Shown piece by piece: positions 31,551 through 34,602 of a stretch of DNA of 64,000 bases. The first letter of the stretch is position 1; every line of letters starts with the position of its first letter. The notes beneath the pieces are model-generated. The model saw only the letters and a program-made list of their open reading frames with translations. It had not been told where the DNA came from and did not search any database. Position numbers and translations under genes: made by a program. Origin of the DNA: Actinobacteria bacterium OV450 (GTDB lineage: Bacteria > Actinomycetota > Actinomycetes > Streptomycetales > Streptomycetaceae); the NCBI GenBank assembly GCA_001298555.1, contig LJCW01000131.1:62001-126000 (forward strand), written 5' to 3'.

Positions 31551-32750
31551 GTGACCGACCAGGCCGCTCTCCAGTCTGTCCTCGACCGCGCCGCCGCAGG
31601 GGGCCGGATCACCAGGGAAGAGGCGCTCGACCTCTACCGGCACGCCCCGCTGCACGCGCTCGGCCAGGCCGCCGACGCGGTGCGCCGCCGCCGCTACGCC
31701 GGCACCGAGCACATCGCGACGTACATCATCGAGCGCAACATCAACTACACCAACGTGTGCGTCACGGCGTGCAAGTTCTGCGCCTTCTACGCGGCCCCCA
31801 AGGACACCAAGAAGGGCTGGTCCCGCGGTCTCGACGACATCCTGCGCCGCTGCGCGGAGACCGTCGAGCTCGGCGGCACGCAGATCATGTTCCAGGGCGG
31901 ACACCACCCGGACTACGGCGTGGAGTACTACGAGGAGCACTTCTCCGCCATCAAGAAGGCGTTCCCGCAGCTGGTCATCCACTCCCTCGGCGCGTCCGAG
32001 GTCGAGCACATGGCCCGCATCTCCGGCGTCTCGGCGGAGGAGGCCATCCAGCGGATCCACGCCGCCGGCCTCGACTCCTTCGCGGGTGCCGGCGCCGAAC
32101 TCCTCCCGGAGCGGCCGCGCAAGGCGATCGCCCCGCTCAAGGAGTCCGGCGAGCGGTGGCTGGAGATCATGGAGATCGCCCACAAGCTGGGCGTGGAGTC
32201 CACCTCCACCATGCTGATGGGCACCGGCGAGACCAACGCCGAGCGCATCGAGCACATCGCGATGATCCGCGACACCCAGGACCGCACGGGCGGCTTCCGC
32301 GCCTTCATCCCGTACACGTACCAGCCCGAGAACAACCACCTCAAGGGCCGGACCCAGGCGACGGTCTTCGAGTACCTGCGGATGATCGCGATCGCGCGGC
32401 TCTTCCTCGACAACATCGCCCACATCCAGGGCTCCTGGCTCACCGTCGGCAAGGAGGCGGGCCAGCTCTCGCTGCACTACGGGGCGGACGACCTCGGCTC
32501 GATCATGCTGGAGGAGAACGTGGTCTCCTCGGCCGGTGCCAAGCACCGCTCGAACCGGCAGGAGATCATCGACCTGATCCGCAAGGCGGGCCGCGTCCCC
32601 GCGCAGCGCGCGACGACGTACGAACACCTCGCCGTGCACGAGGACCCGGCGAACGACCCCGTCGACGACCGCGTGGTGTCGCACATCTCCTCCACCGCGA
32701 TCGAGGGCGGCACGGCGCACCCCGAGCTGAAGCTCATCTCGACGAACTGA
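31551..32750 (+). CDS. mqnC: Cyclic dehypoxanthinyl futalosine synthase
   Basis: A 399-residue radical SAM enzyme. Cys70, Cys74 and Cys77 (C-V-T-A-C-K-F-C) bind the 4Fe-4S cluster; G-G-T-Q-I-M-F-Q-G-G-H-H-P and S-L-G-A-S-E-V are typical of MqnC. It cyclises dehypoxanthine futalosine, the third enzymatic step of the futalosine menaquinone pathway. The GTG start has AAAGGTGA upstream. The following gene begins six bases after the stop and is almost certainly co-transcribed. Confidence 0.95.
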   Translation: MTDQAALQSVLDRAAAGGRITREEALDLYRHAPLHALGQAADAVRRRRYAGTEHIATYIIERNINYTNVCVTACKFCAFYAAPKDTKKGWSRGLDDILRRCAETVELGGTQIMFQGGHHPDYGVEYYEEHFSAIKKAFPQLVIHSLGASEVEHMARISGVSAEEAIQRIHAAGLDSFAGAGAELLPERPRKAIAPLKESGERWLEIMEIAHKLGVESTSTMLMGTGETNAERIEHIAMIRDTQDRTGGFRAFIPYTYQPENNHLKGRTQATVFEYLRMIAIARLFLDNIAHIQGSWLTVGKEAGQLSLHYGADDLGSIMLEENVVSSAGAKHRSNRQEIIDLIRKAGRVPAQRATTYEHLAVHEDPANDPVDDRVVSHISSTAIEGGTAHPELKLISTN

Positions 32751-32756
32751 GGCCGT

Positions 32757-33407
32757 GTGCTGACGCTTCACACCGCCGACCTCCTCCTCGCCGGACCGGG
32801 GGCCGCGCCGCTGCCCGGCGGGGCGGTCCTCGTCGAGGGTGACCGGATCAGCCGCGTGGGCCCGTACGAGGAGCTTGGCGCGGCCTGGCCGCACGCGCGC
32901 CTCCGGCGCTGGCCCGGGGTGCTGACGCCGGGGCTGCTCGTGCACGGGGCGGACGCGCTGCTGGAGCGCACGTACTACCCGGACGACCCGTACGAGACCG
33001 CCGAACTCGGCGCTGAGCCCCTGAGCGGGGCCGAGGCGCTGGCAGGGCTGGCGATGACCGAGTCCCGCTGGGGCAACAGCGCCCGCCGGGCCACGCAGAA
33101 GCTGCTGGCCCGCGGGGTGGTGGCGGTGACCGGGAGGCTCACGGTCCCCGCGGTCCGCACCGCGGTGATCCGCTCCGGCCTGACGCTCCTCCCGCCGACG
33201 GCGGCGGTGCCCCCGGCCCCGCCGTCCCTGGACCCGTTCGCCGGCCGGGACACGGCCGAGCAGGCCTTCTTCGGCACCCTGGAACCGAACGCCCCGGCCC
33301 GCTTCGCGGTGTTCGCGTCCCCGGACGCGGAAGCCCTCCTCGAACAGGGCGCCACCACCTGCGTGGCCACGGTCATCACGGGCCGCCTCCTCCACCGCCG
33401 CCGCTAG
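32757..33407 (+). CDS. Imidazolonepropionase-like domain protein, probably non-catalytic
   Basis: A 216-residue protein resembling the beta-sandwich (composite) domain of amidohydrolases: L-T-L-H-T-A-D-L-L-L-A-G, G-A-V-L-V-E-G-D-R-I-S-R-V-G and a T-P-G-L-L-V-H-G motif. Real amidohydrolases continue T-P-G-L-x-x-x-H-x-H with metal-binding His; here the second His and most of the barrel are missing. It is less than half the length of the enzyme family. The gene is tightly coupled to mqnC (6-base gap, GTG start), suggesting an accessory role in menaquinone synthesis that is not established. A palindromic element begins right after the stop. Confidence 0.75.
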   Translation: MLTLHTADLLLAGPGAAPLPGGAVLVEGDRISRVGPYEELGAAWPHARLRRWPGVLTPGLLVHGADALLERTYYPDDPYETAELGAEPLSGAEALAGLAMTESRWGNSARRATQKLLARGVVAVTGRLTVPAVRTAVIRSGLTLLPPTAAVPPAPPSLDPFAGRDTAEQAFFGTLEPNAPARFAVFASPDAEALLEQGATTCVATVITGRLLHRRR

Positions 33408-33410
33408 GTC

Positions 33411-33574
33411 GTGTCGTCAAAGTCCCGTCTGGCCGGCGGGGCCTGGTACGCACGCTCGCCGCGTTGTCGTCGGTCACCGACGCTCCGCGTCGATTCCCTC
33501 CTCCGCCTTGCGATCGCACGCACCAGGCCCCGCCGGCCCCGCCCTTCGGGCGGCCGACGCTACTTTGACGACAC
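33411..33574. mobile_element. 164-bp palindromic MITE-like element
   Basis: The ends are perfect 13-bp inverted repeats, GTGTCGTCAAAGT (33411-33423) and ACTTTGACGACAC (33562-33574). A second, inner perfect 17-bp inverted repeat pairs 33431-33447 with 33522-33538. There is no coding capacity. This is the design of a non-autonomous miniature transposon whose ends would be recognised by a transposase elsewhere. No clear target duplication is visible; partial AGG symmetry extends just outside. It starts four bases after the stop codon of the mqnC partner gene and could also act as its terminator. Confidence 0.65.
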
Positions 33575-33663
33575 TCCCTGGGCGCCCGGCGCGCCGCGCC
33601 GTGACGTGGATCACCGGAAAAGGGTGACACGCTGGTGTCGCCGAAGGCTGCGACCGTCGGCAC

Positions 33664-34602
33664 ATGACGATCACAGATCAGGACTGCCTCGCCGAGACCC
33701 TGGCGTTCAACGAGCAGTTCGAGACCGCCGCCGCGAACCGCCCGGCCCGCGGACAGGACCTCGACGCCTCCCTGCTGGCCGGACTGCGCCGCAACCGGCT
33801 CGGCGGCGACACACCCCCCGTGAGACTGCCGCACGGACGGGACCGCTTCATCGCGGGCGGCGTGCGGCTGCGGACCTTCGCGGGGGACCGCGTCGACGGC
33901 GTGTACCTGCACGTGCACGGCGGCGGCTGGGCGTTCGGGTCCGCCGACGGCCAGGACGAGAGGCTGTGGCGACTCGCCGTCGAGGCACGGCTGGCCGTCG
34001 TGAGCGTGGACTACCGCCTCGCGCCGGAACACCCCTTCCCCGCCGGACCCGACGACTGCGAAGCGGCCGCCCGCTGGCTGATCGACCACGCCGAAGCCGA
34101 GTTCGGCACCCGGCGGCTGCTGATCGGCGGCGAATCGGCCGGCGCCCACCTGAGCGTCCTGACCCTGCTGCGCCTGCGCGACCGGCACGGCATCACCGGC
34201 GCGTTCCGGGCCGCCAACCTGCTCTTCGGCCCGTACGACCTGTCGATGACACCGAGCCAGCGGTCGTTCGGCTCCCGGCGGCTGCTGAGCAACACCGACT
34301 CCCTCCGGGGCAGCTACGAGCTGTTCACACCCGGGACGGGCCCGGAGCAGCGCCGCGACCCCGGTCTCTCGCCGCTGTTCGCCGACCTGACCGGCCTGCC
34401 GCCCGCCCGGATCGTCGTCGGTACCGAGGACCCGCTGCTGGACGACTCGCTGTTCCTGGCCTCGCGCTGGCAGGCGGCGGGCGCGCCCGTACGGCTCGGC
34501 GTCGTCGCCGGTGCGATGCACGGCTTCACGCTGTTCCCGCTGACCGTCACCGAGCGGGAACAGGAGCGCCAGCAGGAGTTCCTGGCCGCCGCATGCCGGT
34601 AG
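33664..34602 (+). CDS. Alpha/beta hydrolase, hormone-sensitive-lipase type
   Basis: A 312-residue esterase of the HSL/bacterial family IV group. H-G-G-G-W (85-89) forms the oxyanion hole, G-E-S-A-G carries nucleophile Ser158, G-T-E-D-P-L-L the Asp, and A-M-H-G-F the His near the end. V-S-V-D-Y-R-L-A-P-E-H-P-F-P is the usual family stretch. It has no signal peptide, so it acts inside the cell on short-chain or aryl esters. The next gene, a WYL regulator, starts ten bases after the stop on the same strand, so the two are likely co-transcribed. Confidence 0.9.
   Translation: MTITDQDCLAETLAFNEQFETAAANRPARGQDLDASLLAGLRRNRLGGDTPPVRLPHGRDRFIAGGVRLRTFAGDRVDGVYLHVHGGGWAFGSADGQDERLWRLAVEARLAVVSVDYRLAPEHPFPAGPDDCEAAARWLIDHAEAEFGTRRLLIGGESAGAHLSVLTLLRLRDRHGITGAFRAANLLFGPYDLSMTPSQRSFGSRRLLSNTDSLRGSYELFTPGTGPEQRRDPGLSPLFADLTGLPPARIVVGTEDPLLDDSLFLASRWQAAGAPVRLGVVAGAMHGFTLFPLTVTEREQERQQEFLAAACR

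Follow-up and report, generated by a model that had tools for sequence, protein, structure and literature searches.

The stretch of DNA analyzed here (the window; 64,000 nucleotides from Actinobacteria bacterium OV450, a member of the Streptomycetaceae) carries mqnC at 31551-32750 (TIGR03699), an ORF at 32757-33407 without an NCBIfam hit and, beginning at the stop codon of this ORF, a palindromic element. An earlier note on this DNA placed the element directly behind an mqnC operon; mqnC does lie upstream, but the ORF at 32757-33407 intervenes, making mqnC one ORF further upstream. In an inverted-repeat check of the window, we found both perfect repeats described in that note, with arms of 13 bp (33411-33423 and 33562-33574) and inner arms of 17 bp (33431-33447 and 33522-33538), as well as longer imperfect arms around the element. 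A search of the window detected no second case of such nested inverted repeats, and 100 dinucleotide shuffles produced none. The fold computed for the plus strand of 33400-33590 has an energy of -115.4 kcal/mol (z = -7.7). Based on other copies and on the terminal repeats, the element is longer than the 164 bp first proposed, spanning 172 bp (33407-33578) from GG to CC and ending in terminal repeats of 24 bp that match at 19 of 24 positions, with the 13-bp word as their perfect part. Nor does it start four bases after the stop codon, as had been thought; rather, the TA at 33405-33406 and the first G of the element make up the TAG stop codon itself. The features are as follows:

33405-33406, no strand: left copy of the TA target duplication, which with 33407 makes the TAG stop of the upstream ORF, within CTAG
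33407-33578, no strand: whole element, 172 bp, ends GG...CC, set by comparing copies and terminal repeats
33407-33430, plus strand: left terminal inverted repeat, 24 bp, 19/24 match to the right repeat
33555-33578, minus strand: right terminal inverted repeat, 24 bp, 19/24 match to the left repeat
33411-33423, plus strand: perfect 13-bp part of the left repeat, a word that also terminates IS5-family elements elsewhere
33562-33574, minus strand: perfect 13-bp part of the right repeat, inverted match to the left part
33431-33447, plus strand: left inner 17-bp arm, perfect match to the right arm
33522-33538, minus strand: right inner 17-bp arm, perfect match to the left arm
33436-33533, minus strand: conserved hairpin core, delimited by blastn matches in other genomes (query positions 32-129); the minus strand folds better (G-U pairs)
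33579-33580, no strand: TG of the right flank, read as a decayed right TA copy; an intact TAG stands here in 84/130 copies

Only mechanical ORFs of the GC-rich sequence cross the element and none is supported as a gene, consistent with the lack of coding capacity proposed earlier. A known RNA family was rejected as the identity of the element, as Rfam gave no match over it at the gathering threshold (best, CRISPR-DR20 with E = 0.26); kink-turn and ribozyme ideas were also considered and not taken up. Elsewhere in the window, the plus strand of 3284-3525 matches RF02673 (scr4677, a Streptomyces sRNA) with 102.5 bits.

The earlier note recognized the design of a MITE and proposed to look for further copies with the same ends, for empty sites in relatives, and for a transposase gene bordered by the 13-bp ends; all three were found. 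The host genome (390 contigs) contains a 99% identical copy on contig C368, partial copies, short forms that keep mainly the ends, and other subfamilies, and the end word TGTCGTCAAAS occurs 52 times in it vs once for the reversed control. Scoring 150 of 22720 candidates with the covariance model R1 placed the core at 40 or more positions in the host genome (E ≤ 0.1); at E ≤ 1e-6, this model detected the core in at least 101 of the 121 genomes of the host's genus, including the host's own. All 34 plasmid records matching the element are from Streptomyces, which, together with the named loci, suggests that the genus is Streptomyces. No record in the phage collection matched it, and on this basis a phage origin was rejected.

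DNA matching the upstream ORF over some length is present in 140 of 150 genomes. The core was found in none of 29 loci of this ORF from other genomes, while the locus in the window has it; in G095, the same ORF end ...CCGCCGCTAG is uninterrupted, with CTAG intact and no insert. In the gatC leader, the core is present in two of 30 loci (G005 and G020), and a short palindrome resembling the outer arms in G077 is read as a remnant; the site is empty in G019, G029, G076, G080, and G081, whose gatC is 98-99% identical to that of G005. At L365, L366, L393, and other gatC loci, the filled, remnant, and empty states lie between a promoter-like CATAGGAT and gatC.

Several further observations concern the arrangement of copies. 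In a genome of another family in the same order (G047), a related element lies, by eye, at the stop codon of an mqnC-like end (L054); this insertion near mqnC is apparently independent of that in the window. Paired core matches lie ~50-60 bases apart within one locus at L311, L342, and L349. By eye, a second palindromic repeat (CCCCCAG...GGGAGGTGCCCCC-like) is present in the loops or arms of the cores at L003, L040, L043, L184, L192, L200, and L214; this short repeat appears to have inserted there, giving hairpins nested in hairpins.

To describe the insertion sites, we used 130 of 138 core hits, having dropped eight with weak or over-long ends or repeated flanks. The left boundary reads CTA in 85 of these copies and the right boundary TAG in 84; at L397, the flanks read CTA and TAA, arguing that the duplication is TA rather than CTAG. 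Based on our own codon score, trained on six ORFs of the window, 119 gene ends face an element, and the boundary itself is a TAG stop codon in 60 of them and TAA in seven. CTAG occurs 21 times in the window vs 166 expected from base composition. As CTAG is scarce and TAG stop codons frequently supply it, copies come to lie exactly behind genes. The insertion site in the gatC leader is an exception to this target rule, and several other copies are also not at CTAG.

Scanning the genome collection for TAGGNNGTGTCGTCAAAGT yielded 73 stretches, many of them from unrelated bacteria without further likeness and most with one end only. An IS5-like transposase match accompanies the 13-bp end in 17 of the 73, six of these in one Chloroflexi genome. 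The arrangement is complete in Streptomyces sp. RPT161 (L238), in which a 1264-bp element carries the word at both ends and lies between CTA and TAG; its two frames match NF033580, the IS5 family transposase, and we take this two-frame type to be the IS427 group. Both ends are also present in L213 (Amoebophilaceae), one with a mismatch. IS5-like elements of the host genome (916, 899, and 1093 bp) carry ends that are related to those of the element but not identical, the family assignment having been checked for the 916-bp element alone; no IS5 element with exactly the ends of the element was found in this genome. At ~3275-3525 of L060 (G000:C83), a broken copy of the element runs into an IS5-like transposase remnant. 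L003 was considered as the parent insertion sequence and rejected, being a broken copy with the other short repeat in its loop beside an IS5-like remnant. From the shared ends, we infer that the element would be mobilized in trans by IS5-type transposases. Altogether, the element is short and non-coding, with terminal inverted repeats, dispersed copies, a TA duplication, and ends shared with IS5 elements, and we firmly conclude that it is a MITE with IS5-type ends.

Cores that are 92-96% identical carry either class I (...GGATCA) or class II (...AAAGT) ends, e.g., L031/L305 and L276/L246. The comparison of end classes comprised 76 elements with TA on both sides, of which 12 were placed in a class "other", most of them resembling class II; from this comparison, only named class I/class II pairs are counted as evidence of end exchange. 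By eye, L254 (G000:C329:29490) is also chimeric: its two ends belong to different classes, and CTAG stands at either side of it. The combination of one core with several end types presumably points to movement by different transposases.

The core is a hairpin of ~98 nt between the terminal repeats. Model R1 scores the window with 111.1 bits on the minus strand vs 22.4 on the plus strand. In an alignment of 100 distinct copies fitted to the model, in which the copies are related so that shuffle counts are not probabilities, 98.2% of the stem cells are paired (83.7% shuffled), 286 cells are changed on both sides (81.8 shuffled), and the covariation score is 0.429 (0.160 shuffled), none of these values being reached in 500 shuffles; pairs altered at both positions number 11 vs 9.5 shuffled, a count that 51 of 500 shuffles reach and that is no clear excess. 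Mismatches on the better-folding (strong) strand are 441 G-U vs 18 A-C, and 122 vs 17 outside majority-wobble pairs. An unfitted alignment gave 23 pairs, 10 with double changes, on the strong strand, the other strand folding much more weakly; here, G-U outnumber A-C mismatches 135 to 11, and modestly, 23 to 11, outside majority-wobble pairs. This strand is the better folder in all 30 cores of one set and, with both RNA and DNA parameters, in all 91 of another, the mean advantage with DNA parameters being -7.4 kcal/mol; for these strand energies, the 138 hits were reduced to 99 elements and 91 distinct cores, and the two sets of cores overlap and are related. In subfamily B of the host genome, the hairpin is plain and the conserved bulges are missing; this subfamily has nevertheless spread, arguing that the bulges are not needed for spread.

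The orientation of the core tends to follow replication. Among the matches listed, which are the strongest copies and do not include weaker ones, the strong strand is plus to the left of dnaA or minus to its right in 171 of 241 cases from 19 genomes (p = 6e-11). This rule held, among the matches listed, in 133 of 199 cases when G081, the most biased genome (38:4, i.e., 38/42), was left out, and in 102 of 141 when G090 (31:27) was left out as well. The counts cover dnaA-bearing contigs, leaving out G019:C2, G025:C2 and C3, G004:C1, and others, and for G093, the best of three DnaA-like hits was taken. G012, in which dnaA lies far from the middle, was balanced at 25:25 in both layouts tried and was kept out of the 19-genome count; with it, 16 of 20 genomes lean to the rule, two lean the opposite way (G073 and G125), and two are tied (G012 and G124). 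In contrast, the matches listed for IS5 transposase genes in these 19 genomes were split 64:65 (Fisher p = 7e-5 vs the MITEs), this control lumping many IS5 types. For forks leaving oriC, these data suggest that the strong strand serves as leading-strand template and the weak one as lagging-strand template.

The CTAG palindrome has no direction of its own. Relative to the facing gene, the strong strand is sense in 47 and antisense in 72 of the 119 cases. Of the 47 elements with both kinds of data, 38 follow the replication rule, and 13 of these 38 have the gene facing the sense side; data for the other nine are few. With 72 of 119 antisense and 13 of 38 facing the sense side, we rejected gene orientation as a sufficient cause of the replication bias. 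In G081, twenty copies at different sites are nearly identical, and with DNA parameters the strands of this element differ little (-60.5 vs -57.3). By eye, the copies at L396, L400, L410, and L414 of this genome adjoin one repeated sequence (CAATGCCGTTCGG...), pointing in either direction relative to it and in one direction relative to dnaA. Because the G081 family is young and strongly biased and its strands differ little, the evidence leans toward a direction set at insertion rather than toward the loss of misplaced copies.

Altogether, we consider it probable that this is an IS5-moved, CTAG-targeting MITE with a strand-specific, end-exchanging core, the insertion or survival of which is coupled to fork polarity. 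According to this model, the non-autonomous transposon would be moved in trans by IS5-family transposases and would insert at CTAG-like sites with duplication of the central TA; its core, folding better on one strand, would combine with different terminal repeats; and the insertion or survival of new copies would be coupled to the polarity of the fork, such that the weak-folding strand comes to lie on the lagging-strand template. Our preferred guess is that the core makes the near-symmetrical element directional at the fork. We speculate, with considerable doubt, that the core is a selfish unit that outlives its drivers by swapping IS5-type ends, and that its one-sided hairpin, and not the transposase ends, sets the direction of DDE insertion at forks.

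The strongest competing explanation, which we regard as possible although the odds are against it, is that orientation arises after insertion, copies with the strong strand on the lagging-strand template being lost by hairpin cleavage or slippage. Lagging-strand hairpins are unstable, the strong strand is also the better DNA folder in all 91 cores, and the direction of the bias, with the weak strand inferred to be on the lagging template, is as such loss would leave it. The G081 copies argue against this explanation, since they are nearly identical and hence young, yet are oriented 38:4 with little difference in energy between their strands. Somewhat more doubtful is an ordinary MITE with an ancestral, functionless asymmetry and a hitchhiking core, in which the bias would come from the behavior of some IS5 transposase at forks. 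A review (PMC5371812) describes orientation bias and clamp binding for multiple insertion sequence families, and subfamily B has spread without conserved bulges; however, pairing has been kept through many changes (the 286 double-change cells), derived mismatches are mostly G-U (122 vs 17 outside majority-wobble pairs), and the IS5 transposase genes listed for the same genomes are unbiased.

We think it improbable that the element transposes as a single, folded strand in the manner of IS200/IS605 or REP. IS200/IS605-like elements are without terminal inverted repeats and without target duplication, and REP/REPIN have a tetranucleotide foot at a short hairpin and a RAYT gene. Orientation that follows replication, as in Tn7, IS200/IS605, and REP, and the use of strand-specific hairpins, as in IS608, ISDra2, and REP-like elements, are features the element shares with these systems as far as the accessible parts of the papers describe them (PMC5371812, PMC6006769). 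However, they use different transposases, the terminal inverted repeats and the TA duplication of the element are those of DDE-type IS5 elements, and its strong strand appears, from the position of dnaA, to lie on the leading and not the lagging template. Co-option by the upstream operon, either as a terminator, as the earlier note suggested for the mqnC unit, or as a 3'-end RNA element, is very improbable. The position at a stop codon and the very stable hairpin would suit such a function; however, the CTAG target accounts for this position, the facing gene mostly has the strong strand in antisense rather than sense, and no copy exists in the 29 matching loci. Moreover, an intrinsic terminator is a GC-rich stem followed by a T run, and there is neither a terminator-like site at 33250-33750 nor a T run at the element; from these sequence features, we rejected a terminator for the mqnC unit. 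Finally, although the stems covary across copies, the dispersed multi-copy family and its absence from the 29 loci leave practically no chance for a fixed, single-copy structured RNA at this locus. This last alternative had been offered as the case that would refute mobility; a single fixed copy was not seen, yet compensatory changes are abundant, and the choice between a mobile element and a structured RNA is a false one, as mobility and conserved structure coexist.

Among known systems, the Correia elements/NEMIS of Neisseria resemble the element in being small and non-coding, with terminal inverted repeats, TA ends, and a target duplication, and the accessible parts of the papers report that they form a stable hairpin in transcripts with RNase III processing (PMC2229807, PMC10969869). 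The element differs from them in sequence and host, in its IS5-type ends at CTAG, in having varied ends round one core, in the strand-specific G-U core, and in its replication-linked direction. The pneumococcal RUP is similarly moved in trans by an insertion sequence with like ends and has a TA target; unlike in our case, the partner is of the IS630 type, and no functional signature beyond the ends is reported in the accessible part of the paper (PMC2229807). BOX and SPRITE of pneumococcus are modular or terminator-like structured repeats near genes, SPRITE being, as far as the accessible part of the paper describes it, terminator-like and AT-rich, whereas the element is GC-rich and has no T-run (PMC3049150). 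IS5-family elements (NF033580) have the same 13-bp end and the CTAG/TA target in the case of L238, and those of the host genome have related ends; unlike them, the element has no transposase and carries a hairpin core. Among titles and abstract starts of the open-access literature, we found no report on this family, although this does not prove that none exists, and the word Streptomyces does not occur in the main text of a 2024 MITE review as accessible (PMC10969869).

Two features beyond those of an IS5-type MITE are unusual: the core, which is strand-specific, occurs with different ends, and its direction follows replication. MITEs are usually viewed as passive remnants of one insertion sequence. 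The rarity of CTAG and its supply by stop codons offer a simple explanation for hairpins at TAG stops, copies of which annotators may mistake for terminators or conserved regulatory RNAs. This element family links mobile DNA, strand folding, and replication, and its widespread, end-swapping, structured, and oriented core provides a testable case for how non-coding mobile DNA persists and for fork-coupled transposition.
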